Origin: a virus
Virus record (IMG/VR): IMGVR_UViG_3300044646_001493
Span: 1-20,389 of that record
Length of the DNA stretch: 20,389 bases
Reading direction: 5' to 3' (one strand)
The position numbers and the translations under genes were made by a program. The notes under the pieces were generated by a model, which was not told where the DNA came from, did not search any database, and saw nothing but the letters and a program-made list of their open reading frames with translations. Shown here piece after piece: positions 1,182-20,302 of the stretch (position 1 is the first letter of the stretch; each line of letters begins with the position of its first letter).

Positions 1182-1208
1182 TCTAGAAGAAATCAATAAG
1201 TAATATCA

Positions 1209-3218: not shown

Positions 3219-3226
3219 TTAAAGCA

Positions 3227-4128: not shown

Positions 4129-4133
4129 TGTTA

Positions 4134-4142
4134 ATATTTATT
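4134..4142 (-). promoter_or_regulatory. TAAATAT / T4-late-promoter-like box
   Basis: On the minus strand 4142-4135 reads AATAAATA, a 7 of 8 match to the T4 late promoter TATAAATA, and 4140-4134 reads TAAATAT. Only 5-6 nt separate it from the ATG at 4128. If it works as a T4 late promoter, the transcript would begin within a base or two of the start codon. Confidence 0.45.
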
Positions 4143-4144
4143 CT

Positions 4145-5362
4145 TTAAAGGTTGAATCGTGATCTTGTAGAGTTAAAGTTTTGAAGTACTTCAGAAGGAG
4201 TTAATGCACGATTATATACTTTTACTATAGCTAAAGATCCATTATAGTAAAACCCTCTAGAACCATTATACCCACCATACACCCCAATTGATGAACCATT
4301 AGTGTTAGTACTAATTGTACCTGCTTGGGTATCCGAATTTACAAGTCTACCGTTTACATACAATCTTCTTACTCCACTGGTATAAGTACCAACTACTTGA
4401 GCCCACTGAGATGTAGATATAAAACTTGCAGCAGATGTAGATAAAGTTACAGTACTTCCAACATTTTGACGCCAAAAAATATTTGTGCCTTCTTGAAACA
4501 AACTATATTGAGTATTGACTTGACCTTTTTCAAACCAGAATCCGTTTTGATTAAGACTGTTTGTCTTTACCCAAACTTCAACAGTTGGTGTTTGGGTATT
4601 TAATGCCGAATTTTCCGGGGATATAATATAACTAGAACTCCCGTTAAAGGTAATACTACCATCAGTGCCAAAAACAGTATTAGTTAGATCAAAAGTATTG
4701 CTACCAGCAAGATCTTTAAGACAGGTAGTGACCCCGCGGTTTATTCCTATTTCTGGCCATTTTAAAGGATTTAACCCCGTGTAGTTACCTTTAAGTAATG
4801 CTACTTTTGCAATAGCAATTCTATCTGTAAAAGTACTATATCTATAATAAAAAGAATATAATATTAATCTATTTGTTGTAGCCTGGGTAGTAAAAGTACC
4901 CCATGCCCAGTACCAACCACTACCTAAATTTGATCGGTTAGAGTCGCTAAAAATTCCTGACTCAGTTAGATACGTGTTAGTATTATATTCATAACGATAC
5001 AAGTAGTTAGGGTGAGTATAACCACTTTGACTAAAATATAATATACCGTATGTGTATAAAGTTGAACCAGTTATACCGGTTGTTATATTACCATAATCAA
5101 ATAGACTCGGACAGCACCATGAAGATTGAGCAGAATAATTATTTTGAGCTACACAGTTACTAACAGTAGTAGATAACTGTAACCCGGGCACGTAGTCTGT
5201 AGAAGTACTTCCTGTAAAAGCATAACCTGTACCGGTTCCTGTAGTAATGCTAATTTGAGATGCAAAATTCTGTAAAGGTGGCCCTACATAACTTTTAATG
5301 TTATTAGTGTCTATGTAAAGTACTAAACCGTCGGTTACTGCATTTAAATTACCGGTAGCCAT
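4145..5362 (-). CDS. LamG-fold adhesin with an inserted beta-sandwich domain (405 aa)
   Basis: The protein opens with the same segment as its two shorter relatives (VTDGLVLYIDTNNIKSY, 9-25) and closes with the same one (VYNRALTPSEVLQNFNSTR, 382-400). Residues about 216-395 form a laminin G-like/concanavalin A-like jellyroll: FNGSSSYI (239-246), VEVWVKT (261-267), WAQVVGTY (320-327), RLYVNGRLV (333-341), SIGVYGG (358-364). Unlike the relatives, about 190 residues (27-215) separate the first strand from the rest. That insert (YGILYFSQSG, YLYRYEYNT, GSGWYWAWGTFT, RIAIAKVALLKG) looks like a carbohydrate-binding beta-sandwich (CBM4/9- or discoidin-like). Likely a virion receptor- or glycan-binding protein. 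Its ATG is one base after the stop of the 81-aa gene; no Shine-Dalgarno is visible, suggesting coupling. Confidence 0.8.
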   Translation of the reverse strand: MATGNLNAVTDGLVLYIDTNNIKSYVGPPLQNFASQISITTGTGTGYAFTGSTSTDYVPGLQLSTTVSNCVAQNNYSAQSSWCCPSLFDYGNITTGITGSTLYTYGILYFSQSGYTHPNYLYRYEYNTNTYLTESGIFSDSNRSNLGSGWYWAWGTFTTQATTNRLILYSFYYRYSTFTDRIAIAKVALLKGNYTGLNPLKWPEIGINRGVTTCLKDLAGSNTFDLTNTVFGTDGSITFNGSSSYIISPENSALNTQTPTVEVWVKTNSLNQNGFWFEKGQVNTQYSLFQEGTNIFWRQNVGSTVTLSTSAASFISTSQWAQVVGTYTSGVRRLYVNGRLVNSDTQAGTISTNTNGSSIGVYGGYNGSRGFYYNGSLAIVKVYNRALTPSEVLQNFNSTRSRFNL

Positions 5363-5363
5363 A

Positions 5364-5609
5364 TTAAAAAGGTATTTGAGAAGACCAGTTTTCGTCTTTT
5401 AAAAAATTTTGAATGTCGTTATAATTATATTCTTGAGACTTACTTGCAAGAGTCTTTACACTTTCCGGCATATTACCTGTGTATTTTAAATAGCTTTTTC
5501 CGGGAGTTACACTTGATGTTCTAACAGGATCAGCTGAAAAAACTAAAAGTTCATTAATATCAACTTTATTAATTTCAGTACTATCAAAAATTATATAGAT
5601 AAAAGTCAT
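5364..5609 (-). CDS. Small protein between LamG genes (81 aa)
   Basis: An 81-residue soluble protein beginning with a hydrophobic strand (MTFIYIIFDSTEINKVDINELLVFSAD) and ending with a helical stretch and an aromatic tail (YNYNDIQNFLKDENWSS). I recall small proteins of this style next to fibre genes in T4-like marine phages but cannot name a function. It could be a fibre assembly helper or a minor virion part. It overlaps the LamG gene before it by ATGA (5606-5609) and is followed one base after its stop by the next LamG start, so it is translated as part of a tight three-gene run. Confidence 0.65.
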   Translation of the reverse strand: MTFIYIIFDSTEINKVDINELLVFSADPVRTSSVTPGKSYLKYTGNMPESVKTLASKSQEYNYNDIQNFLKDENWSSQIPF

Positions 5610-6322
5610 AAACTATATTTTGCTCTTGAAGCGTTAAAGTTTTGTAGTACTTCTGACCCGGTTAACTGTCGGTTATATATTTTAGTACTTGCAATATAGC
5701 CTAACCATCGCGAATTAGTAGCTTCATGGCCAATACCTATTTGACCAGTAACAGACGGATTTGTACTAGGTATAGAGGTTATAGCTCTATACGCGCGCTG
5801 TCTTCCATTAAAATATATAGTTGATGATTCACCGCTACTCCAGGTTACTGCATAATGACCCCAAGAGCTAACAGGGTGTACCGTTGACCAGCTACTTACT
5901 GTATTATCGAGATTACAACAGCCGGAACCATCACCTAACCGAAAATATAAAACAGAACCACTACTCCATACTCCAAGCCAGAGCCAGTCAACGGCATTAG
6001 ACGTAGTAGTTGATCTATTTATAATTAAACCATTACCGTCACTCCAACTAGTCGGGTATGCCCACATTTCAATAGTACCGGTAGTTTTTGGAAAATTAGT
6101 TAAAGAAAATATCATACCGTCACTATTACCTGCAGTGCCATTAAAAAAGCTACCACCTTCTTTAGTATTATACGTATAGGTAGCTGATACAGTAACATTC
6201 ATATTACTCCGGCTTATGTCAGTCCATGTTGTACCGGTACCCGGGTAGCTCTTAGAGTTAGCAGCGTCTACATACATTACTAAGTTATTAGTTGTAACTT
6301 TGGGGCCGTTATAGTAGCTCAT
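5606..6322 (-). CDS. LamG-fold lectin-like virion protein (238 aa)
   Basis: One laminin G-like/ConA-like jellyroll fills the protein. Visible: LVMYVDAANSKSYPGTGTTW (14-33), TIEMWAYP (83-90), WGHYAVTW (154-161), TIYFNGRQRAYR (168-179), IGIGHE (195-200), YIASTKIYNRQLTGSEVLQNFN (209-230). Such domains bind sugars or proteins and are common in phage fibres. A Cys pair (135-136) lies in a loop, as does a Cys pair in the longer relative. Its start and end segments match both neighbours, so the three genes are paralogues. The spacer before it carries AGAGGTAGGT, with the nearest AGGT 10 nt from the ATG, an acceptable ribosome site. It ends overlapping the 81-aa gene. Confidence 0.8.
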   Translation of the reverse strand: MSYYNGPKVTTNNLVMYVDAANSKSYPGTGTTWTDISRSNMNVTVSATYTYNTKEGGSFFNGTAGNSDGMIFSLTNFPKTTGTIEMWAYPTSWSDGNGLIINRSTTTSNAVDWLWLGVWSSGSVLYFRLGDGSGCCNLDNTVSSWSTVHPVSSWGHYAVTWSSGESSTIYFNGRQRAYRAITSIPSTNPSVTGQIGIGHEATNSRWLGYIASTKIYNRQLTGSEVLQNFNASRAKYSL

Positions 6323-6341
6323 GTTAAATTATACCTACCTC

Positions 6342-7046
6342 TTATAGACCGAACCTTCCTTTTGTTGCGTTAAAGTTTTGACGTATTTCAGCGGGAGTTA
6401 ATGCTCTGCTGTATAAGGATACCTGGGAAATGTTTCCTTTAAAATATTTGTCACTTGCAGTCGCAGGGTCAGTCGGTCTTCCTAAAAAGCTCTGAGCTGG
6501 GTTTCTGTCTGTCGTTAATGTATCTATGGACGTTGATGTAGTCGCTACTTGAACTGCGTTTACAAAATATCTTTTATACCCTCCGGTTACACTATAGACA
6601 GCAGTAATAAAATTCCATTTATTAAGAGTTAAATAATCTATTGATAAATCGTTATTACGCGCCCCTGTAGTTCCAGTTGATGTGTCTCGAGTATACCAGA
6701 TACTAGTAATTATGTTAAATTGCCACCACTCTCCCGGGCTATATCCTTCAGCGAATAAACTGCCATTATTACCTGATTGAGTCGGATAGACATACATTGC
6801 TACGGTTAATTCTGATCTACCAGCTAATATTGCCGTACTAAAAGATACGTAATCGTCAACCCCGTCAAATGCAACGCTTCCGCCTCCAGTGCTACTAAAA
6901 GTCGCTCCAGTTAAGGTACCATTGTATCCGTTTCTACTTATATCAGTCCAAGTAGTACCGGTACCGGGGTAGCTTTTAGGATTACCTGCATCTAAGCAAA
7001 GCGCTAATCCATCTGTTACTATCTTAGGGGAGTAATACGTACTCAT
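6342..7046 (-). CDS. LamG-fold lectin-like virion protein (234 aa)
   Basis: Second small laminin G-like jellyroll protein: DGLALCLDAGNPKSYPGTGT (12-31), GSVAFDGVDDYVSF (56-69), LTVAMYVYPTQ (80-90), WNFITAVY (144-151), KRYFVNAVQV (158-167), SFLGRP (186-191), GNISQVSLYSRALTPAEIRQ (204-223). The FDGVDDYV signature is classic for this family. The gene starts one base after the stop of the giant fibre. Its ribosome site, GGAGGT at 7052-7057 with a 5-nt spacer, is the strongest in the window and lies inside the last codons of that fibre gene, which implies expression from the same transcript. Likely role: receptor or glycan binding on the tail or its fibres. Confidence 0.85.
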   Translation of the reverse strand: MSTYYSPKIVTDGLALCLDAGNPKSYPGTGTTWTDISRNGYNGTLTGATFSSTGGGSVAFDGVDDYVSFSTAILAGRSELTVAMYVYPTQSGNNGSLFAEGYSPGEWWQFNIITSIWYTRDTSTGTTGARNNDLSIDYLTLNKWNFITAVYSVTGGYKRYFVNAVQVATTSTSIDTLTTDRNPAQSFLGRPTDPATASDKYFKGNISQVSLYSRALTPAEIRQNFNATKGRFGL

Positions 7047-7047
7047 A

Positions 7048-7536
7048 CTATACCTCCGTTTCTAGTTTTGGTATATCTTTACGTTCTGCTTGTACAAAGA
7101 AGTAACAGTCTATAGAGCTATTTATTAAGTTATCGTTTTTAATTACTATTTGATTACTGCTTACACTTACCACTACGAGTTTTTGAAATGCATTTGCTGG
7201 TGTAAGTTGTACTGTAAGAGTATTTTCGTCGATAAGCTTAGCCCAATATTCTGGAAGTTCAATTATGTTAGTTGTAGTTTTACCACGGATAAATACAGAA
7301 TGTTCAGGCCCTTCAATTACACCGTATACTAACTTCTTACCAGGCTTTGTTGGGTGATCAATTACGAATGACTTAGTAGTAGCAGCAAATGAACCGCTAA
7401 CTTCAAGTTTGTATGCAGCTCCTTGGGTACCAATACCCACGTTAGTACCGTTATCAAATATCTGGCTGTTACCGAGAGCGGTACCAGAAGTAAATTTAGC
7501 TACAAAGTTTGTAGTACCAGTAGCATTAGCATTACC
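7048..7536 (-). other. C-terminal beta domain of the giant fibre
   Basis: Residues 2916-3077 leave the Gly-X-Y pattern. The first part (TNFVAKFTSGTALGNSQIFD, NVGIGT, YKLEVSGSF) is a beta stalk. The remainder (FVIDHPTKPGKKLVYGVIEG, VFIRGKTTTNIIELPEYW, LTVQLTPA, VVVSVSSNQIVIKND, CYFFVQAERKD) matches my recollection of a common distal domain of T4-like and other phage fibres. It is likely the trimerising tip or receptor-contact end. No catalytic intramolecular chaperone (S74-type) motif is visible. Confidence 0.7.
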
Positions 7537-10500
7537 TTGTACACCCTGAACACCTTGTACGCCTTGAGCTCCTGCAGCCCCTTGGTTACCTTGATTGCCC
7601 TGATTACCTTGATTGCCTTGTGCTCCAGTTGCACCTTTAGCACCGGAGTAACCAGATATACCAGAATAACCAGACACACCTTGTACACCGGTAGCACCTT
7701 GTGCCCCAGCTGCCCCTTGAGCTCCAGCTGCACCTTGAGCGCCTGCAGCACCTTGTGCGCCATTAGTACCAGCAGCGCCCTGAGCGCCGGCAGCACCTTG
7801 TGCGCCATTAGTACCAGCAGCACCTTGATTACCCTGCGCACCAGTAGCACCTTTGGCTCCTGAATAGCCAGATATACCTGAATAGCCAGAAATACCAGAA
7901 TAACCAGACACACCCTGTACACCGGTAGCACCCTGGGCCCCTGCTGCACCTTGAGCTCCAGCTGTACCTTGGGCACCTGCAGTCCCTTGAGCTCCATTAC
8001 TACCAGCGGCGCCCTGGGCACCATTACTACCGGCTGCGCCTTGTGCTCCAGCTGCGCCTTGATTGCCTTGATTACCTTGATTGCCTTGGGCCCCTTGATA
8101 ACCAGAGTAGCCAGATACCCCCTGTACCCCTTGGGCTCCTTGATTGCCTTGGTTGCCTTGGTTGCCTTGAGCGCCAGTAGCTCCTTTAACACCTGAGTAG
8201 CCAGATATACCGCTAAAGCCGCTATAGCCTGATATACCAGAGTAACCACTAATACCAGAATAACCTGATACACCTTGTACACCAGTAGCTCCTTGTTGAC
8301 CCGCAGCCCCTTGAGTGCCTGTTGCTCCTTGTAAACCAGTAACGCCTTGTACGCCTTGAACCCCTTGGTAACCGGAATAACCAGAAACACCTTGAGCCCC
8401 TACAGCCCCTTGGTTACCTTGATTGCCTTGATTGCCTTGGTTGCCTTGTGCGCCGGTTGCACCTTTAGCTCCTGAGTAACCAGATATACCAGAATAACCA
8501 GATATACCAGAATAACCAGAAACACCTTGTACCCCGGTTGCGCCTTGATTGCCCTGGTTACCTTGGTTACCCTGTACTCCTTGTACCCCTTGGAAGCCTT
8601 GATATCCTGAATAACCAGAAACACCTTGTACACCGGTCGCGCCTTGATTGCCTTGGTTACCTTGGTTACCTTGTGCACCAGTTGCGCCTTTAGCACCGGA
8701 GTAACCAGATATACCTGAGTAACCAGATATACCGGAGTACCCACTTATGCCTGAATATCCCGATACACCCTGTACACCGGCACCACCTTGCGCGCCAGCA
8801 GCGCCTTGATTGCCCTGGTTACCTTGATTGCCTTGAACGCCCTGTACACCTTGAAACCCCTGATAACCAGAATACCCTGACACGCCTTGTACACCGGTTG
8901 CACCTTGATTGCCTTGGTTACCTTGATTGCCTTGGTTACCTTGGTTACCCTGGCTACCTTGTACTCCCTGAAAGCCTTGATAACCTGAATAACCCGATCT
9001 ACCGCTATAGCCACTTATGCCGGAATAACCAGAAATACCAGAATAACCGCTTATACCGCTAAAGCCGCTATAACCACTAAAGCCGCTAAAACCACTATAA
9101 CCAGAAATACCGGAGTAGCCTGATATGCCAGAGTAACCTGAAAGACCTTGTACCCCTTGTACTCCCTGGAAGCCTTGATAACCTGAATAACCCGATCTAC
9201 CGCTATAGCCACTTATGCCGGAATAACCGCTTATACCGCTATAACCGCTAAAGCCGGAAATACCGGAGTAACCGCTAAAGCCAGAATAACCGCTTATGCC
9301 AGAATAACCTGATACACCCTGTACACCGGTAGCGCCTTGGTTACCCTGGTTACCTTGATTGCCTTGTACGCCTTGTACGCCTTGGAAACCTTGGTAGCCA
9401 GAATAGCCTGAAGCCGAAACAGCCCCTTGAAAACCGCTATAGCCTGAGATACCAGAATAACCGCTTATACCAGAATAACCAGAAGCCCCTTGTACACCTT
9501 GAGCACCTTGATAACCACTATATCCCGAAAAACCAGAATAGCCTGATGCAGCTGCGGCACCTTGAAAACCACTGTAGCCGCTTATGCCGCTATAACCGCT
9601 ATAGCCTTGATAACCACTATAACCACTTCTGCCAGAATAGCCACTAAAACCAGAAATGCCAGAATAGCCACTAATACCAGAAATGCCAGAATAGCCACTA
9701 ATACCACTATAGCCGCTTACCCCTGAAAAACCGCTAATACCTGAGTATCCAGAATAACCGCTAATACCGCTATAGCCGCTAAAACCAGAAATGCCTGAGT
9801 AACCACTAATACCTGAGTAACCACTAAAACCAGAAATACCGCTATAGCCGCTTATGCCTGAATAACCTGAAGCTCCTTGTACTCCTTGTACACCTTGAAA
9901 CCCTTGATAGCCACTATAACCACTTCTGCCGGAATACCCTGATATACCGGAATACCCTGAAACTCCCTGTACTCCTTGTACCCCTTGAAACCCTTGATAG
10001 CCACTATAACCACTTCTGCCGGAATACCCTGATACGCCTTGTACTCCTTGTACGCCTTGGAAGCCTTGGTAACCTGATACACCGGAATAACCACTAATAC
10101 CGCTATAACCTGATGTACCGGAATAGCCTGATACGCCTTGGACCCCTTGTATGCCTTGTACGCCTTGTACACCTTGAAAGCCTTGATAACCTGAATAGCC
10201 TGATACACCTTGTACTCCAGTAGCGCCTTGGTTGCCTTGGTTGCCTTGATTGCCTTGATTGCCTTGAGCTCCTTGATAACCTGAGTAGCCAGATCTACCA
10301 GAATAACCAGATATACCGGAGTAGCCACTAATACCACTATAGCCTGATATACCCGAGTAACCGCTAATACCTGATATACCAGAGTAACCGCTAATGCCTG
10401 AGTAACCGCTTACGCCTGAAAAACCGATAATACCTGAATAACCAGAATAGCCTGATATACCCGAGTAACCGCTAATACCTGATATACCAGAGTAACCACT

Positions 10501-13500
10501 ATTACCACTATAACCAGACACGCCCTGTACACCTTGTACACCTTGGAAGCCTTGATACCCACTGTAACCAGAAATACCTGAATACCCTGAGGCCCCTTGT
10601 ACTCCTTGGAAGCCTTGATAGCCTGATATACCAGAGTAGCCGCTAATACCGGAATAACCAGAAATACCGGAATAACCAGAAGCACCTTGGACGCCTTGAA
10701 CGCCTTGGACTCCTTGAAACCCTTGATAGCCACTATAACCACTTCTGCCAGAGTAACCAGAATAACCTGATATACCAGAATAACCGCTAAAACCACTATA
10801 ACCAGAAATACCAGAATAACCACTTATACCACTATAACCACTCCAACCACTAAAGCCGCTAATACCTGAATAACCACTAATACCGCTAAAGCCTGAGTAG
10901 CCACTAATACCTGAATACCCTGAAGGTCCAGAATAACCGCTTACGCCAGAATAGCCAGAATAGCCGCTAATGCCAGAATAACCACTTATGCCTGAGTAAC
11001 CGGAATAGCCGCTATAACCCGAAACACCGCTGAACCCGCTTATACCACTATAACCCGAAACACCGCTGAACCCGCTTATACCAGAGTAACCTGAATACCC
11101 TGAAATACCACTATAACCTGAGATGCCGCTATAACCGGAAACCCCGGAACCAGAATAGCCGCTAATGCCTGAATAACCTGAGAACCCTGATATACCGGAA
11201 TACCCTGATATACCGGAATAGCCTGACCGGCCTGAATAACCACTAGTACCGCTGAACCCTGAATAACCACTATACCCACTAATACCGGAATAACCACTAA
11301 TACCAGAATAACCACTGAACCCGCTTATACCAGAATAACCTGAAATGCCTGAGTAACCTGAAGGACCGGAATAACCTGAGTAGCCTGAAGGCCCGGAATA
11401 ACCACTTATACCTGAGGGACCTGAATAGCCGCTGTACCCGGACTCACCATAAGCAATTAATGCCGCTGTAAAATACGTACCGGTGCCGGCACTGTTAATA
11501 TTTTGTCCTGCTGACGCGCCTGTAAAGGCGGTCACTTCTACGTAATCAGTAGACCCATTAAAGTAAACTATTGTCGATAAAGATTGTCCTCGACCGTTAG
11601 TAGTATTGACTGGATCTTGCTGAATTGCTAGTTGAGTGGTTCCGTTCTTTTTTAACTGAATATTATTTTGTTCAGTATTGTCCACCCCTGCTTCCCACCA
11701 AACAGAAACATTTACAGCATAATAACCAGCAACGGTTGGCTGAAACTTATTAGAAGCAAACCAGTTACGCGGGTCAAAGTCGTCTGCAAACGTAACAACA
11801 GTATCAATAGCAGAACTAATACTTTGTGTACCGCCTTGTTTAGTGGCGCGGACCACATACGTGCTCGGTGTCAACATACCACCGTCTTGACCTGAATAAC
11901 CACTTATACCTGAATAACCGCTAATACCGGAATAGCCACTATACCCGGAAATACCACTATATCCGCTAGACCCTGAGTAACCACTAATACCGCTATAGCC
12001 AGAATGTCCCGATGTACCGGAATAACCGCTAATACCAGAATAACCGCTTATACCTGAGTAGCCTGATACACCGCTAAAGCCGCTAAAGCCTGATATGCCA
12101 CTATAGCCTGAAATGCCAGAGTAACCACTTATGCCGCTATAACCACTATAGCCTGAAATGCCGGAGTAACCACTAATGCCTGAGTAACCACTAATGCCTG
12201 AATAACCCGATATACCTGAATAGCCACTAATACCTGAATAACCGCTAATACCGGAATAGCCAGAGTACCCACTTACACCAGCACCTGAATAACCCGAATA
12301 ACCTGATGTACCTGTAGCTCCTCTATAAATACCTGTAGAGATATTACTGTAGTGGTCAGTGCCCTCGTAATATACTCTTACCGTTCTAGTTTGATTTTGA
12401 GGGCATTCAGCAGTAACTTTTAATACTAATCTATCAGTTATATCTAAAACTTTGGCGATCGCAATAGTATAATTGGCGACCGAAAGGACTGGATTATTGA
12501 TATCTGTGTTAGTTAAAAAGTAGCTAAGAGCAGAAAGAAGAAGAGTTTCTGTACCCCCTGTAGTGCGGCTATAGACAGAATATGTAAGACGAACATCTCC
12601 AGCATGGCTTACGTAGTACCAAGTATTAAACTGCCAGGTACCAGCTGGTATTTGCGTTGCACCTGGTTCTCCAATTGGAGTAACTTGATCAATAAAATTA
12701 ACTGCCGTCTGAGTAAACGTTGTTGTGAAGAACGTTTCTGCATCAGAGTCAGGGGCTATATCTAATACAGAGTACCCAGCTGCGCTTAAATCAGAAGCAC
12801 TATTAGTGTAATAATAAGTTACACCCACTGCAGGTGCACCACTGAAGCCGCTAAAACCGCTAAAACCACTATAACCAGATATACCTGAATAGCCAGAAGT
12901 ACCACTATAGCCACTATAACCACTAATGCCTGAATAGCCTGAAAATCCGCTAATGCCTGAGTAACCGCTTATGCCACTATAACCAGAATAACCGCTTATA
13001 CCGCTATAACCAGAAATACCACTATATCCGGAATAGCCACTGTAGCCACTAATACCGCTATAACCGGAAATACCTGAGTAACCACTAAAGCCGCTAATAC
13101 CTGAATAACCGCTAATACCAGAATAACCGCTAATACCAGAATAACCGCTAATACCTGAGGAACCAGAGTAGCCGCTTATACCTGAATAGCCTGAGTAACC
13201 ACTAATGCCTGAGTAGCCTGAATAACCGCTAATGCCTGAATAACCAGAGTAGCCGCTGGTACCTGAATAGCCGCTAGTACCTGAATAACCGCTGATACCG
13301 CTATACCCGCTGGTACCGGAATAGCCACTAAAACCAGAGATACCGCTATAACCTGAGTAGCCTGATTCCCCAGAGTAACCACTTATACCCGAATAGCCGC
13401 TAATGCCTGAATAACCGCTGATACCTGAGTAGCCCGAAATGCCTGAGTAGCCTGAATAACCACTAATACCAGAGTAACCGCTTATGCCCGAATAACCGCT

Positions 13501-16281
13501 AATGCCACTATAGCCTGATACTCCAGAACCAGAGTATCCGCTTATGCCGCTATAACCACTAAAACCAGAAATGCCGGAATAACCCGAAATGCCGGAATAC
13601 CCTGAATAGCCCGAAATACCTGAATAGCCTGATATACCAGAGTAGCCTGATTCGCCAGAATAACCCGAAACACCACTAAACCCGCTTATACCACTGTAAC
13701 CAGAAACACCACTATAGCCACTAATACCGCTATAGCCTGAGTACCCTGATTCTCCGCTAAAACCACTTATACCTGAGTACCCAGAAAAACCTGAATACCC
13801 AGATATACCGCTATAGCCGCTAGGGCCTGAATACCCACTTTCTCCGCTGTAGCCGCTATAACCACTTATACCTGAGTAGCCACTTATACCCGAATAACCG
13901 GAATAGCCTGATATACCACTATAACCCGATACCCCGCTATAACCCGATATGCCACTATAACCGCTATAACCAGATGGGCCACTATAACCACTGTAACCAC
14001 TTATACCAGAATATCCTGAAATGCCTGAGTAACCGGAGTACCCGCTGTCTCCACTTATACCCGAATAACCGGAATAACCACTAATACCGGAATAACCACT
14101 AATACCAGAATAACCTGATACACCTGAATAACCGCTTATGCCTGAATCTCCGCTATAACCGGAAATGCCTGAGTAGCCACTAAAACCGGAAAAGCCAGAA
14201 TAACCGCTTATGCCGCTATAGCCACTAAAACCAGAAATGCCTGAGTAGCCTGAATAACCGCTAATGCCTGAATAGCCTGATATACCTGAATAGCCTGATA
14301 TACCAGAATAACCACTTATGCCTGAATCTCCACTATAGCCGGAAGTACCTGAATAGCCGCTATAGCCACTAATACCGCTATAACCGCTAATGCCTTCATC
14401 CCCGCTTATACCGGAGTAGCCTGAGTAACCCGATATACCTGAATAACCTGAGTAGCCGCTAATACCTGAATAACCAGATAAACCAGAGTAGCCGCTTATA
14501 CCAGAGTCTCCACTGTAACCTGATATACCACTGTAGCCGCTAAAGCTACTGTAGCCTGAGTACCCCGATATACCGGAGTAACCAGAGTAGCCACTTATAC
14601 CCGAATAACCGCTTATACCGCTATAGCCAGAATAACCAGAGTAGCCGCTAATACCTGAATAACCTGAGTCTCCACTATAACCGCTTATACCGCTGTAACC
14701 ACTAAAACCAGAAATGCCTGAGTAGCCTGATATACCTGAGTAACCACTAAAACCAGAAATACCACTATAACCACTATAACCGCTGATACCGGAATAGCCT
14801 GAATAGCCACTAATACCAGAATAACCTGAGTACCCGCTGATACCAGAATAACCGCTTAAGCCTGAATAGCCAGACGTACCACTATATCCCGAAGTACCGC
14901 TATAACCTGAATAACCTGAAATACCGCTGAACCCACTTATACCGCTATACCCGGAATAGCCGCTTATGCCTGAAAAGCCACTAAAACCGCTAATACCCGA
15001 ATAACCAGAATAGCCTGAATACCCACTAATACCGCTGTACCCTGAGTAGCCTGAAAACCCGCTAATGCCTGAGTAACCGCTTATGCCTGAGTAACCGCTT
15101 ATGCCTGAATAACCAGACGCAGATGTTGCACCTACGGCACCGCTGTAGCCGCTAATACCTGAGTAACCACTATAGCCACTGATACCACTGTATCCCGAAA
15201 TACCAGAATACCCCGATATACCTGAATCACCGCTATAGCCAGAAATACCAGAATAACCACTTATACCAGAATAACCAGATGCTGATACCGCGCCTACTGC
15301 CCCAGAATAACCTGAATAACCACTAAAGCCGGATGCACCACTATAACCTGAAATACCAGAATTTCCGCTATAGCCAGAAATACCAGAGTAACCACTGATA
15401 CCACTATAACCACTAATACCTGAATAACCGCTTATGCCGGAGTCTCCGCTATAACCGGAAATACCGCTGTAACCACTAAAACCAGAAATGCCTGAGTAGC
15501 CACTAACACCTGAGTAGCCGCTAGTACCTGAATAACCGCTAATACCACTGTAGCCGGAATAACCAGAGTACCCGCTGATACCTGAATAACCAGAAACACC
15601 TGAGTAACCACTAATACCACTATAACCACTAGGGCCAGAATAACCTGAAATACCTGAATAGCCGCTATAGCCTGAAATACCGCTGTAACCACTAATACCA
15701 GAATCCCCACTATAGCCTGAAATACCGCTATAGCCTGAAATACCAGAATAGCCTGACAGGCCTGAATAACCGCTATAACCACTTATGCCAGAATAACCGG
15801 AATAACCACTAATGCCAGAATAGCCACTTATGCCTGAGTAACCAGACGCTGCGCTGTAGCCAGAATAACCCGATGGCCCACTATAACCGGAATGCCCTGA
15901 ATAACCACTATAACCACTAATACCAGAATAGCCGCTTTCGCCTGAATAGCCTGAGTAACCACTATAACCAGAAACTCCAGATCCTGAATAACCGCTTATG
16001 CCGCTGTAACCACTTACCCCGGAATACCCTGAGGCGGATGTTGAACCTTGCGCGCCTGAGTAACCCGAATAACCTGACTCTCCTGCGCCTGAATATCCCG
16101 AATAACCTGAATTTCCATCTCTCCCTACAATACCTGCTGCCGAAAGAGCACTTAATGCTGTACTATATGAACTGTAAGTTCCGTCCCCGTTATTTCTTTC
16201 TAGAAATATTAAATCGGGTAACGTCGGCGTTACTTGTGGTAACTCGTGCGGAAAAATCAGTGTAGGGTCGTTAGCGGCCAT
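7048..16281 (-). CDS. Giant collagen-like fibre with two internal globular islands (3,077 aa)
   Basis: A single open frame. Residues 1-52 are a non-repetitive head (PQVTPTLPDLIFLERNN), probably the virion anchor. Then come three Gly-X-Y shafts (53-1147, 1321-1466, 1612-2915; about 2,545 residues), two islands (1148-1320 and 1467-1611) and a C-terminal beta domain (2916-3077). Third-position Ser dominates (GYS, GIS, GFS); from about residue 1850 Gln joins (GFQ, GVQ, GNQ, GAQ). Pro is rare. The C-terminus (IGTQGAAYKLEVSGSF, IDHPTKPGKKLVYGVIEGPE, then FVQAERKD) resembles a domain that ends many phage fibres. By collagen geometry (about 0.29 nm per residue) a full triple helix would be near 730 nm. 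No Shine-Dalgarno is present; a TAAATAT box lies 8 nt before the ATG. Presumed role: long host-attachment fibre. Confidence 0.9.
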   Translation of the reverse strand: MAANDPTLIFPHELPQVTPTLPDLIFLERNNGDGTYSSYSTALSALSAAGIVGRDGNSGYSGYSGAGESGYSGYSGAQGSTSASGYSGVSGYSGISGYSGSGVSGYSGYSGYSGESGYSGISGYSGYSGHSGYSGPSGYSGYSAASGYSGISGYSGISGYSGYSGISGYSGYSGLSGYSGISGYSGISGYSGDSGISGYSGISGYSGYSGISGYSGPSGYSGISGYSGVSGYSGISGYSGYSGYSGISGYSGTSGYSGVSGYSGISGFSGYSGISGYSGDSGISGYSGISGYSGISGYSGISGYSGNSGISGYSGASGFSGYSGYSGAVGAVSASGYSGISGYSGISGYSGDSGISGYSGISGYSGISGYSGYSGISGYSGAVGATSASGYSGISGYSGISGYSGISGFSGYSGYSGISGYSGYSGYSGISGFSGFSGISGYSGYSGISGFSGISGYSGYSGTSGYSGTSGYSGLSGYSGISGYSGYSGISGYSGYSGISGYSGYSGISGFSGYSGISGYSGISGFSGYSGISGYSGDSGYSGISGYSGYSGYSGISGYSGISGYSGYSGISGYSGYSSFSGYSGISGYSGDSGISGYSGLSGYSGISGYSGYSGISGYSGYSGISGDEGISGYSGISGYSGYSGTSGYSGDSGISGYSGISGYSGISGYSGISGYSGYSGISGFSGYSGISGYSGFSGFSGYSGISGYSGDSGISGYSGVSGYSGISGYSGISGYSGYSGISGDSGYSGYSGISGYSGISGYSGYSGPSGYSGYSGISGYSGVSGYSGISGYSGYSGISGYSGISGYSGYSGESGYSGPSGYSGISGYSGFSGYSGISGFSGESGYSGYSGISGYSGVSGYSGISGFSGVSGYSGESGYSGISGYSGISGYSGYSGISGYSGISGFSGYSGISGYSGSGVSGYSGISGYSGISGYSGISGYSGYSGISGYSGISGYSGISGYSGISGYSGESGYSGYSGISGFSGYSGTSGYSGISGYSGTSGYSGTSGYSGYSGISGYSGYSGISGYSGYSGISGYSGSSGISGYSGISGYSGISGYSGISGFSGYSGISGYSGISGYSGYSGYSGISGYSGISGYSGYSGISGYSGISGFSGYSGISGYSGYSGTSGYSGISGYSGFSGFSGFSGAPAVGVTYYYTNSASDLSAAGYSVLDIAPDSDAETFFTTTFTQTAVNFIDQVTPIGEPGATQIPAGTWQFNTWYYVSHAGDVRLTYSVYSRTTGGTETLLLSALSYFLTNTDINNPVLSVANYTIAIAKVLDITDRLVLKVTAECPQNQTRTVRVYYEGTDHYSNISTGIYRGATGTSGYSGYSGAGVSGYSGYSGISGYSGISGYSGISGYSGISGYSGISGYSGISGYSGYSGISGYSGISGYSGISGFSGFSGVSGYSGISGYSGISGYSGTSGHSGYSGISGYSGSSGYSGISGYSGYSGISGYSGISGYSGQDGGMLTPSTYVVRATKQGGTQSISSAIDTVVTFADDFDPRNWFASNKFQPTVAGYYAVNVSVWWEAGVDNTEQNNIQLKKNGTTQLAIQQDPVNTTNGRGQSLSTIVYFNGSTDYVEVTAFTGASAGQNINSAGTGTYFTAALIAYGESGYSGYSGPSGISGYSGPSGYSGYSGPSGYSGISGYSGISGFSGYSGISGYSGISGYSGYSGFSGTSGYSGRSGYSGISGYSGISGFSGYSGISGYSGSGVSGYSGISGYSGISGYSGYSGISGFSGVSGYSGISGFSGVSGYSGYSGYSGISGYSGISGYSGYSGVSGYSGPSGYSGISGYSGFSGISGYSGISGFSGWSGYSGISGYSGISGYSGFSGYSGISGYSGYSGRSGYSGYQGFQGVQGVQGVQGASGYSGISGYSGISGYSGISGYQGFQGVQGASGYSGISGYSGYQGFQGVQGVQGVSGYSGNSGYSGISGISGYSGISGYSGYSGIIGFSGVSGYSGISGYSGISGISGYSGISGYSGISGYSGISGYSGRSGYSGYQGAQGNQGNQGNQGNQGATGVQGVSGYSGYQGFQGVQGVQGIQGVQGVSGYSGTSGYSGISGYSGVSGYQGFQGVQGVQGVSGYSGRSGYSGYQGFQGVQGVQGVSGYSGISGYSGRSGYSGYQGFQGVQGVQGASGYSGISGYSGISGFSGYSGISGYSGISGFSGYSGISGYSGYSGISGFSGVSGYSGISGYSGISGISGYSGISGFSGYSGRSGYSGYQGYSGYSGISGYSGFQGAAAASGYSGFSGYSGYQGAQGVQGASGYSGISGYSGISGYSGFQGAVSASGYSGYQGFQGVQGVQGNQGNQGNQGATGVQGVSGYSGISGYSGFSGYSGISGFSGYSGISGYSGISGYSGRSGYSGYQGFQGVQGVQGLSGYSGISGYSGISGYSGFSGFSGYSGFSGISGYSGISGYSGISGYSGRSGYSGYQGFQGVQGSQGNQGNQGNQGNQGNQGATGVQGVSGYSGYQGFQGVQGVQGNQGNQGNQGAAGAQGGAGVQGVSGYSGISGYSGISGYSGISGYSGAKGATGAQGNQGNQGNQGATGVQGVSGYSGYQGFQGVQGVQGNQGNQGNQGATGVQGVSGYSGISGYSGISGYSGAKGATGAQGNQGNQGNQGNQGAVGAQGVSGYSGYQGVQGVQGVTGLQGATGTQGAAGQQGATGVQGVSGYSGISGYSGISGYSGFSGISGYSGVKGATGAQGNQGNQGNQGAQGVQGVSGYSGYQGAQGNQGNQGNQGAAGAQGAAGSNGAQGAAGSNGAQGTAGAQGTAGAQGAAGAQGATGVQGVSGYSGISGYSGISGYSGAKGATGAQGNQGAAGTNGAQGAAGAQGAAGTNGAQGAAGAQGAAGAQGAAGAQGATGVQGVSGYSGISGYSGAKGATGAQGNQGNQGNQGNQGAAGAQGVQGVQGVQGNANATGTTNFVAKFTSGTALGNSQIFDNGTNVGIGTQGAAYKLEVSGSFAATTKSFVIDHPTKPGKKLVYGVIEGPEHSVFIRGKTTTNIIELPEYWAKLIDENTLTVQLTPANAFQKLVVVSVSSNQIVIKNDNLINSSIDCYFFVQAERKDIPKLETEV
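8960..9228 (-). repeat. Long DNA repeat pair inside shaft C, 198 bases apart
   Basis: Bases 8960-9030 and 9158-9228 are 71-nt copies that differ at one position (AAAG versus GAAG on the plus strand). The offset of 198 bases equals 66 codons or 22 triplets, so the frame is kept. Given how varied the synonymous codons are elsewhere, this points to a recent in-frame duplication or unequal exchange. Confidence 0.85.
9893..10034 (-). repeat. Exact 52-nt DNA repeat pair inside shaft C, with a third partial copy
   Basis: Bases 9893-9944 and 9983-10034 are identical over 52 nt at an offset of 90 bases (30 codons, 10 triplets). The first 38 nt occur again at 10712-10749. All copies encode the Arg-containing GRSGYSGYQGFQG module, so this module seems to be the unit most recently copied. 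Confidence 0.85.
11449..11883 (-). other. C1q/TNF-like island in the giant fibre (residues 1467-1611)
   Basis: About 145 non-collagen residues flanked by Gly-X-Y on both sides. The pattern VVRATKQGGTQ, VVTFADDFDPRNWF, KFQPTVAGYYAVNVSVWWEA, IQLKKNGTTQLAIQQ, STIVYFNGSTDYVEVTAF and GTYFTAALIAYG matches the C1q/TNF-like jellyroll. The phrase F-x-P-x-x-A-G-Y-Y-x-V is its most recognisable strand. These domains trimerise and often cap collagen-like stalks; here it lies in mid-shaft. Fold assignment is by eye. Confidence 0.65.
11884..12321 (-). repeat. Gly-X-Y shaft B of the giant fibre (residues 1321-1466)
   Basis: About 146 residues of GYS/GIS-type triplets linking the two globular islands. There is one two-residue register break (GYSGAGVSGYSG) just after the first island. 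No Gln-type triplets except the closing GQD. Confidence 0.85.
12322..12840 (-). other. Beta-rich island in the giant fibre (residues 1148-1320)
   Basis: About 173 non-repetitive residues between shafts A and B. Visible strands: VTYYYTNSASDL, GTWQFNTWYYVSH, VRLTYSVYSRTTGGTETLLL, DRLVLKVTAECP, TVRVYYEGTDHYSNI. I recall the closing pattern (Y-x-E-G-T-x-H-Y-S) and the P-A-G-T-W-x-F strand from structural proteins of other phages, but cannot name the family. Likely a beta-sandwich side domain or receptor module. Confidence 0.55.
12841..16125 (-). repeat. Gly-X-Y shaft A of the giant fibre (residues 53-1147)
   Basis: About 1,095 residues, nearly all GYS, GIS and GFS with rare GTS, GPS, GDS, GES, GVS and GLS. 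Breaks are few: two-residue steps (GAGES, GSGVS) that shift register, and glycine-free triplets such as SAS, AAS and SFS. All six serine codons occur in the third position. The repeat is a protein repeat, not an exact DNA tandem. Confidence 0.9.
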
Positions 16282-16289
16282 GAATATAG

Positions 16290-16298
16290 ATATTTATT
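16290..16298 (-). promoter_or_regulatory. T4-late-promoter-like box before the giant fibre gene
   Basis: The minus strand reads AATAAATA at 16298-16291, 7 of 8 with the T4 late consensus TATAAATA, and TAAATAT at 16296-16290, 8 nt before the ATG at 16281. It lies in the 29-base gap after the neck gene, so the giant fibre could have its own late promoter. A leader of only a few bases would follow. Confidence 0.5.
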
Positions 16299-16310
16299 AT
16301 TGCAAGCTGT

Positions 16311-17366
16311 TTAACAGGCTCCTGAAGGTGGTAAAATTAATAGTGAACTTAATGCCGGGTTTCCGGATAGTAAGGCTGCTAAAAGGGATAGCTGAGCGGT
16401 ATTTGCAGCTGCAATAGATGCAGCTTGAACCGGCGCATAATTGCTTGGACTTTGTACAACTACATACGTATTTGTTGCAGAAGCGCCTAAAGCACCTACT
16501 GTTGCGCCTGAAGTATTTGCAACCCCAATAAAGTTTACTATAGTATTTGTATCTTCGTAATCCCCATAAACATCGGTATTAGATTGAGTATTTTCATTAT
16601 AGTTAAATACCTCTGCAGAATCTTTATCTACAAACTGGGTATATTCTTTAGTTTCTATAACCTTTGGTAGATTATTAACTTGGCCGTCAAATTTATTATC
16701 ATAAACTTGATCCATAAGTTCTTCACGTGGTGCATCAAGTTCATAATTAAAGTCAAAGCGTTTAGCTTTTATCATCCAAATATAGTGACCTAAAAGTTGA
16801 TTGTTTTCGCCGCCCATTTCGTCAACACGCTCTGTTATTTCAAAAACTTTACCACTACGGCCGCCGGGTCTAGTGCGCCCATACTCTGCAAGTTCTATTA
16901 AATCCCCAGCTTTAGGTTCGTAGTTAGCTGCAGAAAGAACTCCGCTAATAGCTGTTACTACGCTGGTAAATGTTGCGATAGGAATAATTGCAGTTAGATC
17001 TGCTTCTCCTTGTAATCCAAATTTGCTTAATACTACATTATCATTACTTAAAGTAAGAGCAATTACCATTGGTAATGGGGTAGAATAACGCACCAGCGGC
17101 ATTTCTCCATAAATGAAATCATGGGCAGATAAATTGTATCCGTTTATATAAAAATTTATTTCCTGACCGTATATACGAATTTGCTCGTTCCACCAGTTCT
17201 GCCAAAGCTGTCTTTCTGAATTTGTATTATCAACATCTAGATAACGAAATCCAGTAGTGCCGTATACACAATTATATCCACCGCTTAGCTGTGGGCCTAC
17301 ATCATCAGTTCCAGGCGCCACATATGGTCCTGTATCGGTACAGTATTTTGACAAATAGCTAGCCAT
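16311..17366 (-). CDS. 14: T4 gp14-like neck (head completion) protein, 351 aa
   Basis: Residues 50-215 read like T4-family gp14, which with gp13 closes the filled head and receives the tail. Visible: SERQLWQNWWNEQIRIYGQEINFYI (split here as 50-67 and 68-74), LSKFGLQGEADLTAI (113-127), PKAGDLIEL (151-159), KVFEITERV (173-181), and LLGHYIWMIKAKRFDFNYEL (191-210), where family members have a Q/L-G-x-x-Y-x-x-K-x-x-x-F-x-Y pattern. The C-terminal 65 residues (from about 285) are Ala/Ser/Leu-rich and end in SGAC, which looks like an extension. The gene is separated from terminase by an opposite-strand gene, whereas in T4 genes 13-17 run together. No Shine-Dalgarno; a TAAATAT box lies 5 nt before the ATG. 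The fibre gene follows 29 bases downstream. Confidence 0.7.
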   Translation of the reverse strand: MASYLSKYCTDTGPYVAPGTDDVGPQLSGGYNCVYGTTGFRYLDVDNTNSERQLWQNWWNEQIRIYGQEINFYINGYNLSAHDFIYGEMPLVRYSTPLPMVIALTLSNDNVVLSKFGLQGEADLTAIIPIATFTSVVTAISGVLSAANYEPKAGDLIELAEYGRTRPGGRSGKVFEITERVDEMGGENNQLLGHYIWMIKAKRFDFNYELDAPREELMDQVYDNKFDGQVNNLPKVIETKEYTQFVDKDSAEVFNYNENTQSNTDVYGDYEDTNTIVNFIGVANTSGATVGALGASATNTYVVVQSPSNYAPVQAASIAAANTAQLSLLAALLSGNPALSSLLILPPSGAC

Positions 17367-17371
17367 TAAAA

Positions 17372-17378
17372 ATATTTA
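17372..17378 (-). promoter_or_regulatory. TAAATAT box before the neck gene
   Basis: The minus strand reads TAAATAT at 17378-17372, with a 5-nt spacer (TTTTA) before the ATG at 17366. It lies in a 56-base divergent region shared with the plus-strand gene at 17423. Confidence 0.4.
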
Positions 17379-17379
17379 C

Positions 17380-17416
17380 TATAAATCATAGAAATAAAGC
17401 CAGATAAACTAAATAT
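17380..17416 (+). promoter_or_regulatory. Late-promoter-like boxes before the acidic protein gene
   Basis: Two candidate elements face right: TATAAATC at 17380-17387 (7 of 8 with T4 late TATAAATA), 35 nt before the ATG at 17423, and TAAATAT at 17410-17416, 6 nt before it. The first would give a normal leader of about 30 nt. No Shine-Dalgarno is visible in that leader. Confidence 0.45.
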
Positions 17417-17422
17417 ATTTAA

Positions 17423-18475
17423 ATGAAGCTAAAAGATTTATCTAGCCTAGGTGACATATATTCCAATATTGCAATTAACAGTAAGCCTGTTGAAACTATA
17501 ATTGAACAAAGACAGGATATTCTTCTAACAGACGCAACGCAGTATCTTCCAGAGAATAAACAAGTTAAACCTGGCTCAGCTCTTGGTGGTGGTCCAGGCG
17601 CAAAAGGAGATGAAGTACATTTAGCTAAAAAGACTGGCCCTGAAGGATTAAAAGGAAATCAATTTGAAAAGGTTTCAAAAAAACAAGATCCAGGTACAGA
17701 TAAGAGCAAAATGAAAAAAGAAGAAGGAGAAGAGACTGCTGAAACTTCTGAAGACACAGACAAAAAAGAAGATTCAAAAGAAAACGTACACGAGGATGAT
17801 GCAGCAAAAAATACTACTCCTAAAGAAAAAGTACGGGAATCTGCAGGGGAGAATAATAAATATAATTACAAACCAAAATTTACTATGTCAAAATTAAAAT
17901 TCGACCAATTGTACGAAGACGCTATTAAGCGTATTCCTTTCACAGAAGACGCAGATGCTGATATGGGTGCAGATGCCGGTGTTCCACCAGCTGACGACGT
18001 AGCAGCGGATGCCGATACCGGCGACGATATGGGTGGTGAAGAAACATCCGAAGTAACAATTACTCTTGACCGCGAAACCGCTCAGAAGCTACATGACCTA
18101 TTAATGGCTCAGCTAGGTGGCGGTGCTGGTGGAGAAGATGAAATGGCAGGCGGCGAAGGTCCAGCTGATGCAGAAGGTATGGAGAATATGGGCGAAGAAG
18201 GCGAGCACGAAGCTCCAATCGAAGAAGAAGTAGAAGCCCAAGATCTCGGCCATGCAGGTGTAGGTTCTGGTGCTAAGTCAGAACAGCTTCATGACAAAGC
18301 AAAGATCAAGACCGTAAGTGATCTTAAGGTCGTAAAGGGTACAGCCGACAAGGGCACCCTCAAGAACGAGCCACAGCCAAAAGAAGAAAAAGGCAATAAT
18401 GCCGCTCTTCAAGGCAAGAACAATAAGGTAGGCTCTGGTACAGTTGCAACTACCGGTAAAAAAGCTTTCGAATAA
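17423..18475 (+). CDS. Acidic low-complexity protein, possible scaffold or other virion protein (350 aa)
   Basis: The protein has no Cys and no Trp. An N-terminal segment (MKLKDLSSLGDIYSNIAINS) may be a docking helix. Residues 50-145 are charged and disordered (Gly/Lys, then Glu/Asp/Lys runs). At 150-173 KPKFTMSKLKFDQLYEDAIK and following look structured. Residues 174-270 are strongly acidic and Gly-rich, interrupted by EVTITLDRETAQKLHDLLMAQL (210-231, a strand plus amphipathic helix). The tail (280-350) is basic. This style resembles phage prohead core or scaffolding proteins, but I cannot match it to a named T4 gene. The 3' two-thirds, from about 17940, uses more C- and G-ending codons (GGC, GCC, ATC, AAG) than its neighbours, as highly expressed phage genes do. 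A strong terminator follows the stop. Confidence 0.75.
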   Translation: MKLKDLSSLGDIYSNIAINSKPVETIIEQRQDILLTDATQYLPENKQVKPGSALGGGPGAKGDEVHLAKKTGPEGLKGNQFEKVSKKQDPGTDKSKMKKEEGEETAETSEDTDKKEDSKENVHEDDAAKNTTPKEKVRESAGENNKYNYKPKFTMSKLKFDQLYEDAIKRIPFTEDADADMGADAGVPPADDVAADADTGDDMGGEETSEVTITLDRETAQKLHDLLMAQLGGGAGGEDEMAGGEGPADAEGMENMGEEGEHEAPIEEEVEAQDLGHAGVGSGAKSEQLHDKAKIKTVSDLKVVKGTADKGTLKNEPQPKEEKGNNAALQGKNNKVGSGTVATTGKKAFE

Positions 18476-18497
18476 GACATAGTAAGCTTTTAGAATT

Positions 18498-18526
18498 AAA
18501 CCCGTTGAGCAATCAACGGGTTTTTT
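18498..18526 (+). terminator. Strong intrinsic terminator with a GCAA loop
   Basis: An 11-bp perfect stem (18498-18508 AAACCCGTTGA with 18513-18523 TCAACGGGTTT) encloses a GCAA tetraloop (GNRA type) and runs into TTTTTTATTTT. It lies 23 bases past the stop of the acidic protein gene and just beyond the stop of terminase on the other strand. On the minus strand the U-tract is shorter (TTTAATT), so termination there should be weaker. Confidence 0.92.
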
Positions 18527-18529
18527 ATT

Positions 18530-20302
18530 TTACGAAATAAAACCGTAAGAAGGTCCGTTAGAATTATTAATACCTAACGGACGCCACCCTTGACCAATTA
18601 GTTCATCTACATCCCCATTTGTTTTATTATTACTACCTATAAAAGCGGGGTTACGAACTGTACCCAATGTATCTTGTTTACCTTTTCCAAATCGATTATA
18701 AAGTTCTTCTTGTTTAGGAATTCTAGCTTCAGCTACTTCATATGGGTCCCAATTTAAAGGTAAAATTTTAAGAGGTTTACCGTTACTATCTTTTTCTAGT
18801 ATTTCGTAAAACTGTTCTATAACTTTAGTATCTAGTACAAATAGAGCCCAGATAAGAGCTTCAACTCTATCGTCTAAATAGCGGTCAGATTGTTTTTTCC
18901 ATACCCCGTTAGGTTGACGAACATAAGTTTTAAACTCATTAATAGTTTTCTTGTCGTAAATTTTAAGCGTACGAAGAGTACTCATCCAGTAACGCAAATT
19001 AGACATACCGTTAAATTTACTATTAGTGTGAGAGTATATTCCCAGGCGAGAATCTTTTTCTACCTTGTCAGTATAGGTGCCCATACTAGGGGTATATTTT
19101 ACAATAGATTCATAATTGTGGGTATGTACTAAAGCATCAACAACTTGCGCACCACAATTATTACGTTCAATTAATAATGGTGGACGTCCCCATTCATGAG
19201 CAATTTCTACTAGACGACCGGCAAAATTAAACGGGTCTAGTTTATTATTAGCATATACAGCTACTTGTTCTATATTAATTAAATCGGTTATATCAAGTAC
19301 TTGTATAGTAGAATTGGCACGGCTTATGCCCTCCCCTACGTCAACCCCTATAGCGTAAAAATGTTTTTCCTGTCTTGGTTTCCAAATTTGATAGCATCCG
19401 TCTTCGCTTTCTAATATTGGATCTGGAGCTGACTTTTCAAACTCTTCCATTTGATCTTTATCAAGAGCATTTTCTCCTGCAGCTCTAAATTCGTTTCCAT
19501 ATTCTTGATTAAATGCATCTACAGAACCGAGAGCCTTAACAGTCATTTCTTTCCATTTTTCGTCTCTACCCGGCACTTCCCACCAGTCAACTCTTTCATT
19601 ATGCCAACCGTTACTATTATCTAAAGAATCGGTATAAATGTTATAAAACAGATTACCCACCCCATTTGGGGTTGAAAGCATAAAGATTTTAGATTTTTTC
19701 GAAGATGTAATGACCGGGAATACCGACTCCCAGAAATCGTTCATAAATTCTGCAGGAATGAATGCAGCTTCGTCAATAAGAAGACAATTAATAGATTCAC
19801 CTCTAGCTGCGTCAGAAGTAGTGGTACTAATACCAATAGAACTACCATTAGCTAGTTCCATACCTTCTTTAGCATAGTTTACAACACCTGGCTTTAAAAA
19901 GTTAGGTAGCATTTCATATGCCAACCGAATACGTTTAAATATATTCTTTGCAGTACCTTCTTTATTAGCTATCAACAGTACTCTATAGTCATCATTAAAA
20001 CAAATCATCCAAAGAGCAAATATAGTAAGAATAGTAGTTTTACCAATTTGTCTAGAAGCTAATACTACGTTAAATCTATTTTCTACTAGAGCTTTTAATA
20101 TACGTTTTTGATACGGATAAAGTTTAATAGGCTGTTTACCTTCATCTAGATTAACTATATAAAAGAAGCGAGAGAAATGTAAGATAGATTTTCTAGCTCT
20201 TTCTAGATCTTCTACCATTTCTGGAGTCCACTCAAATTGAGTTTCCGGTACTGGCAGATTCTTATTACCTAGATAAAAAGTTTGCTCTTTAGATTTTGGC
20301 AT
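18530..20302 (-). CDS. 17: Terminase large subunit, T4 gp17 type (590 aa)
   Basis: The DNA packaging motor and headful nuclease. The ATPase half has Walker A SRQIGKTT (83-90, close to SRQLGKTT of T4 gp17), Walker B LLIDEAAF (174-181) with catalytic Glu178, and the coupling motif STPNG (210-214). The nuclease half has the RNase H-like acidic triad: Asp321 in GVDVGEG, Glu379 in LLIERNNCG, and Asp477/Asp478 in YLDDRVEALIWA. An N-terminal stretch (residues 22-50) precedes the adenine-binding region around YPYQKRIL (62-69). Length is normal for the family (T4 gp17 is 610 aa) and all key residues are present, so it should be active. The C-terminal 60 residues are Gly/Asn-rich, the likely portal-contact tail. 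No strong Shine-Dalgarno precedes the ATG. No small terminase is visible next to it. Confidence 0.97.
   Translation of the reverse strand: MPKSKEQTFYLGNKNLPVPETQFEWTPEMVEDLERARKSILHFSRFFYIVNLDEGKQPIKLYPYQKRILKALVENRFNVVLASRQIGKTTILTIFALWMICFNDDYRVLLIANKEGTAKNIFKRIRLAYEMLPNFLKPGVVNYAKEGMELANGSSIGISTTTSDAARGESINCLLIDEAAFIPAEFMNDFWESVFPVITSSKKSKIFMLSTPNGVGNLFYNIYTDSLDNSNGWHNERVDWWEVPGRDEKWKEMTVKALGSVDAFNQEYGNEFRAAGENALDKDQMEEFEKSAPDPILESEDGCYQIWKPRQEKHFYAIGVDVGEGISRANSTIQVLDITDLINIEQVAVYANNKLDPFNFAGRLVEIAHEWGRPPLLIERNNCGAQVVDALVHTHNYESIVKYTPSMGTYTDKVEKDSRLGIYSHTNSKFNGMSNLRYWMSTLRTLKIYDKKTINEFKTYVRQPNGVWKKQSDRYLDDRVEALIWALFVLDTKVIEQFYEILEKDSNGKPLKILPLNWDPYEVAEARIPKQEELYNRFGKGKQDTLGTVRNPAFIGSNNKTNGDVDELIGQGWRPLGINNSNGPSYGFIS

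Follow-up and report, generated by a model that had tools for sequence, protein, structure and literature searches.

A virus sequence of 20,389 bases, a single IMG/VR record that we refer to in its entirety as the window, encodes a 3,077-amino acid collagen-like protein that is probably a very long thin fiber for reaching bacteria. From its domains, gene neighborhood and variation among relatives, we infer with modest confidence that it forms a trimeric, hinged collagen-like fiber of a T4-type phage, anchored at the neck rather than the baseplate, whose far end would meet host glycans together with LamG proteins. It represents a large phage family that maintains a strict Gly frame over hundreds of triplets, with proline and charge nearly dropped.

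A giant collagen-like gene beside the neck gene of a T4-type phage

The fiber gene (7048–16281, minus strand) starts with ATG and, as the original prediction stated, takes up 45% of the window. The genes around it and the segments of its product are as follows.

3–587, minus: glycosyltransferase family 2 (GT2) gene, truncated at the edge of the window (product of 230 aa in contig L082; Glycos_transf_2, E 1.2e-23)
3227–4128, minus: small collagen-like gene (86 + 215 aa in the window; one 300-aa ORF in L082)
4145–5362, 5606–6322 and 6342–7046, minus: three LamG_3 (concanavalin A-like) proteins (Pfam Laminin_G_3)
5364–5609, minus: 81-aa protein within the LamG cluster (4145–7046)
7051–7527, minus: fiber C-terminal domain, residues 2919–3077 (PHROG matches, 44-sequence alignment, isolates)
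7528–11448, minus: distal Gly-X-Y array, residues 1612–2918, GYS/GIS passing into GVQ, GNQ, GAQ and GAT
11449–11874, minus: D2, weakly C1q-like at the family level, residues 1470–1611 (family profile against PDB; Pfam)
11875–12321, minus: middle Gly-X-Y block, residues 1321–1469
12322–12831, minus: D1, predicted jelly-roll beta-sandwich, residues 1151–1320 (AlphaFold2 and fold matches)
12832–16134, minus: proximal Gly-X-Y array, residues 50–1150, mainly GYS/GIS with short interruptions
16126–16281, minus: COLn, residues 1–52, an N-terminal module (about 50 aa) conserved in the gene adjoining the neck gene at 13 related loci
16311–17366, minus: neck protein of gp14 type, head closure Hc2 (PHROG 679, E 2.6e-10; cyanophage gp14)
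18530–20302, minus: T4-type large terminase (Terminase_6N, E 1e-18; phrog_5989, E 1.6e-50)

The terminase places the phage as T4-type. The order terminase (minus), p350 (plus), gp14-type neck (minus), fiber (minus), LamG (minus) is kept in relatives, with the LamG genes lying beyond contig reach in several of them; LamG genes come after the fiber gene in relatives too, and also in Flavobacterium phage immuto (MW353175). The LamG_3 proteins and the 81-aa protein are possible tip or receptor-binding proteins. The split in the small collagen gene reflects either a sequencing or assembly error or a real frameshift, L082 being otherwise near-identical to the window around it. The window also encodes a 553-aa protein (1544–3205, plus strand) with a cytidylyltransferase-like domain at residues 364–456 and no Pfam match in its first 350 residues. 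The identification as a collagen-like phage fiber is supported by Pfam Collagen, PHROG tail-fiber matches, selection on Gly, virion-structural neighbors, a fiber-type C-terminus and the adjoining LamG genes.

A search of GTDB with the pattern GYSGISGYSG returned 23 stretches, mostly single matches. Dense arrays of this type were seen on three contigs from metagenome-assembled genomes (L363, L369 and L383, assigned to Nitrosotalea, Omnitrophota and Nitrospirae); these may be phage contigs that were binned wrongly, or they may point to the host, and given the possible mis-binning we claim no host.

An interrupted Gly-X-Y array with two internal folded domains

The chain contains 842 strict Gly-X-Y triplets (2,526 residues, where about 2,545 had been predicted) in 15 runs of at least four triplets; 300 residue-shuffled versions average 62 triplets and never exceed 104. 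Pfam Collagen scores 1,108 bits over 15 stretches. Two folded domains and 12 short interruptions break the array, leaving longest blocks of 209, 176 and 113 triplets. Two types of interruption recur: in-phase replacement of Gly, as SAS, AAS or SFS ahead of GYSG, and a phase shift by two residues, as in GSGVSG and similar sequences. If fully triple-helical, the triplets would span 842 x 3 x 0.286 nm = 722 nm, so the 730 nm originally proposed is a fair upper bound, but the array is divided into blocks. A full helix would measure up to about 720 nm plus domains, with hinges making the reach shorter and variable.

Five residues account for the X position in 87% of triplets (Tyr 344, Ile 188, Ala 72, Val 71, Phe 57), and 48% of X residues are aromatic. 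At Y, Ser (643) or Gln (137) occurs in 93%. The Pro/Hyp- or charge-rich X and Y positions usual in collagens, a feature that is not strictly defining, are absent: Pro occupies 9 of 1,684 X and Y positions (0.5%) and charged residues 1.9%. The GYS array nevertheless continues in phase into the ordinary phage-collagen triplets GNQ, GAQ and GAT. Ile follows Ile at successive X positions three times where 42 are expected, and Tyr and Ile tend to alternate, a pattern that may stem from how the repeat expanded or from a preference of the structure.

D1 is confidently modeled as a jelly roll (AlphaFold2 pLDDT 91.8, pTM 0.88). Its fold resembles domains of phage proteins labeled collagen triple helix repeat (TM 0.82–0.84) as well as the jelly roll at the C-terminus of CocE-type esterases. 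It also matches a protein of a giant virus, Solivirus, at TM 0.85 and, more weakly, a betafusellovirus end-filament protein, making this a domain common to very different viruses. A TNF/C1q fold was considered for D1 and rejected; such matches rank under the CocE-type jelly roll with low TM, and we claim "jelly roll" alone.

The C1q domain tops trimeric collagens of animals. For D2, the family profile matches C1q chains in PDB weakly (E 0.0025 to 0.04); Pfam C1q is matched by 8 of 42 family members and BclA_C (PF18573) by 4 of 42. The weakness of the match, and the fact that the window's own copy falls below the Pfam model, count against a C1q-like assignment, which we make weakly and at the family level. 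To that extent D2 would supply, in part, the trimerizing domains that had been proposed. Searching PDB with the single sequence of D1 or of D2 returned nothing, and profiles were needed.

The C-terminal domain matches phrog_28536 (E 3e-31) and phrog_17490 (E 1e-30) and recurs at the ends of phage fiber proteins in a 44-sequence alignment. Its model has a mean pLDDT of 72, and PDB searches gave chance-level matches for the single sequence and nothing below E 0.02, so we assign it no fold. Pfam found no Peptidase_S74 in the C-terminal 163 residues, and neither Pfam nor PHROG matched a fibritin/foldon (T4 Wac whisker) domain in the chain.

A fiber family that varies in length and swaps its proximal part together with the neck tail

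Far from being a singleton, the protein is among the longest of a neck-adjacent family that shares a 50-aa N-terminus and ranges from 353 to 3,371 aa. In 13 related loci, COLn is present in the gene that follows the neck gene. Twelve are complete, at 353, 355, 672, 689, 699, 982, 1,334, 1,475, 1,930, 2,057, 2,306 and 3,371 aa; in the thirteenth, L038, the contig end cuts the fiber gene. Giant collagens differing in X chemistry were also seen in L162 (5627–15739; 3,371 aa), L250 (3,275 codons), L095 (2–10396; more than 3,465 aa, with Thr at Y) and the more distant L190 (5816–17782; 3,989 aa, 1,026 triplets, with an uninterrupted run of 563), so that other phages hold longer ones. Six relatives (L015, L018, L024, L030, L052 and L058) have a short COLn gene with further collagen genes in a row, these extra genes bearing two other N-terminal types, PYGIQPVNPVPVD... 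and ...FVYQAVQGPIG...; it is as if one giant gene stands in for a set of smaller ones.

Comparison of L038, a sister strain, with the window revealed at least 99% identity at 16.7–19.9 kb and 10.8–12.7 kb, flanking a region of about 70% identity that is about 750 bp longer in L038. This cassette (window 12832–16450; L038 2515–9842) comprises the variable C-terminal tail of the neck protein, COLn and the proximal array, and it has been exchanged between distant lineages. L162 shares 91% of the neck core and 39% of the neck tail with the window, yet its neck core is 67%, its tail 90% and its COLn 92% identical to the more distant L034. Joint swapping of the neck tail and the fiber N-terminus is as expected if the two are in contact, and together with synteny it leads us to favor a neck anchor over the baseplate, with COLn as the proposed docking module. 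Against this, adjacency (linkage) alone could explain the joint swapping, and some relatives have the fiber gene without the neck tail. The presence of the tail showed no clear correlation with fiber length.

The same triple-helical protein might instead be a conventional baseplate-attached tail or side fiber, with neck adjacency a matter of gene order only. We regard this as rather unlikely while taking it seriously: the PHROG matches carry a tail fiber label, the immuto cluster with the same C-terminus and LamG is annotated as tail fiber-like and precedes lysozyme and tail sheath genes, and in phiM12 a tail fiber gene directly precedes gp13 and gp14. Within the lineage studied here, however, the neck-fiber gene pair is constant and the fiber N-terminus co-varies with the neck protein tail.

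Selection maintains Gly and Y-position Ser

Codons were compared by aligning the window to L038, L162 and L089. Of 1,092 aligned Gly sites, 1.4% had the residue replaced, against 6.9% for Y and 30% for X, with synonymous change at about half of Gly and Y sites; because the repeat alignment is noisy and the comparisons overlap, these ratios count more than any p-value. Gly is under purifying selection, and the ranking is the pattern that a triple helix, with Gly inside and X most exposed, would give. At 188 of 929 Ser-Ser sites the Y codon has moved from one Ser codon family to the other (TCN and AGY) and still encodes Ser, indicating that the residue is maintained and not a DNA repeat.

A nearly proline- and charge-free composition

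The odd composition noted in the original prediction (Ser/Gln at Y; Tyr, Ile and Phe at X; rare Pro) is confirmed and turns out to be shared by the family. In a set of 182 distinct phage Gly-X-Y proteins with 30,874 triplets in total, the median Pro content of X and Y is 0.4%, the median charged content 3.3%, and Ser, Thr, Asn or Gln fills a median of 94% of Y positions. The corresponding medians are 0.7%, 3.4% and 93% in the 79 proteins found via terminase, D2 or the C-terminus rather than the GYS pattern. Residues at X differ by lineage: Tyr/Ile in the window, Leu/Ile/Thr in L190, Thr/Ser in L175 and Ala/Ser/Phe in L095. Both known stabilizers, Pro and charge, are thus nearly absent as a family trait, whereas the viral collagens tabulated earlier carry Pro at 22% of X positions and charged residues at more than 40% of both X and Y positions (PMC3368898).

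This chemistry argues against a triple helix, aromatic X residues being among the most destabilizing in short host-guest peptides (PMC12862961). With Pro and charge near absent and Tyr and Ser abundant, the chain could adopt a different Gly-rich structure, for instance a polyglycine-II bundle, or remain a flexible tether of the [S/G]Y[S/G] type, perhaps capable of self-association. We consider this unlikely. A disordered tether needs no Gly at exact every-third spacing, yet Gly is the most conserved position, the phase is unbroken over as many as 209 triplets in the window and 563 in L190, and ordinary collagen triplets follow in the same phase. Moreover, bacterial collagens without hydroxyproline melt at 36–39 C when their length exceeds about 150 residues, and sequence then matters little (PMC7824840); length may therefore offset weak triplets in the collagen helix that we favor.

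The GT2 gene lies 6.5 kb downstream of the fiber gene, its product a hypothetical modifier. Among records of at least 60 kb, GT2 occurs in 20 of 22 collagen-rich (at least 10 first-look candidates) and 7 of 18 collagen-poor ones (Fisher p 7e-4), a comparison of related records retrieved in different ways and of a gene common in large phages, for which reason we treat glycosylation as hypothetical. Its proximity and co-occurrence make glycosylation of Y-position Ser a testable way in which the phage helix might be stabilized. More broadly, we tentatively propose, short of an even chance, that phages hold a distinct chemical class of collagen, nearly Pro- and charge-free, with X aromatic, beta-branched or small and Y small and polar, mainly Ser. 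Its triple helices might run to hundreds of nanometers and be stabilized unlike known collagens: side chains that are aromatic or hydrophobic might pack together, hydration might contribute at low temperature, or co-encoded glycosyltransferases might add O-linked sugars to Ser/Thr at Y.

The assembled length

Because Gly, Ser and Tyr codons are mixed, no 61-mer occurs twice in the fiber gene, whose longest exact repeat is 59 bp. Three contigs match the window near-identically: L082 at 1–9,271 (99.99%), L038 at 10,785–12,879 (99.8%) and L012 at 13,931–20,093 (100%). Mis-assembly exaggerating the length of the fiber is very improbable: although the source is a metagenome contig, other contigs terminate within the array, and two stretches (9,272–10,784 and 12,880–13,930; 1.5 and 1.05 kb) have no near-identical match in a second contig, the k-mer uniqueness and independent contigs argue against a collapsed array, the frame stays open over 9.2 kb, and the complete genes of L162 (3,371 aa) and L190 (3,989 aa) make a product of this size class credible.

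A model for the fiber and its relation to known collagens

In the arrangement we favor, the gene product would be the subunit of a homotrimeric virion fiber whose conserved N-terminus docks on the neck region, where the gp14-type protein encoded alongside would sit. Three chains would wind into a nearly Pro-free triple helix whose longest block has 209 triplets, with hinges at the short recurrent interruptions and at D1 and the C1q-like D2; these two putative jelly-roll domains may help keep the chains in register. At the far end, the C-terminal domain would contact host surface glycans, probably together with the LamG proteins. Acting as a long, flexible tether, the fiber would make the first contact, and its length would be tuned by gain, loss and swapping of repeats.

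Collagen stability is usually ascribed to proline and hydroxyproline, with charge pairs as the bacterial substitute. Pro-free phage collagens, many with aromatic residues at X, are widespread and test these usual rules: either the long-chain triple helix tolerates far wider chemistry, or there is an undescribed mode of modification or packing. A Gly-X-Y phage fiber is already known in kind, and a 2022 review still gives phage collagens as about 18 residues long (PMC8968730). In a literature search outside subscription journals, we found no description of the size range, of a whole family nearly lacking Pro and charge, of aromatic residues at X or of the neck linkage, and nothing on the GYSGYSG repeat.

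The closest known parallels are EPclA and EPclB, side-tail proteins of E. coli O157:H7 prophages that likewise place a Gly-X-Y stalk between folded end domains and are phage fiber proteins made without prolyl hydroxylase; purified EPclA, which has no hydroxyproline, forms a trimeric triple helix (PMC3368898). Their stalks carry 48% Pro and 36% Asp/Glu at X and 31% Arg/Lys at Y and lack aromatics (no Tyr, Phe or Trp; PMC3368898), in contrast to the 0.5% Pro, 1.9% charge and 48% aromatic X seen here. Pfam found no EPcl-type N- or C-terminal domain or Ala/Ser coiled coil in the 3,077-aa chain, in which the array adjoins COLn. The immuto fiber protein has a C-terminal domain 54% identical to that of the window, followed by LamG proteins, and unlike our chain has no Gly-X-Y array.

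Outside phages, C1q and related proteins also join a collagen stalk to a C1q-like jelly roll, but in the phage this domain is internal, matches weakly in sequence and accompanies a stalk of other composition. BclA-type Bacillus collagens likewise combine a Gly-X-Y filament, a C1q-like head and small polar residues at Y. BclA itself belongs to the spore surface, has Pro at X and is not a phage fiber. It is glycosylated (PMC8968730). Glycosylated annelid cuticle collagens, which we take as no more than a lead, are very long, with Thr-rich Y positions and stabilization by sugars instead of hydroxyproline; they are animal proteins, and glycosylation of the phage fiber is hypothetical. The T4 tail measures about 100 nm and the T4 long fibers about 145 nm; if our interpretation is true, these phages would carry fibers several times the length of a T4-type tail, varying about tenfold at one locus.
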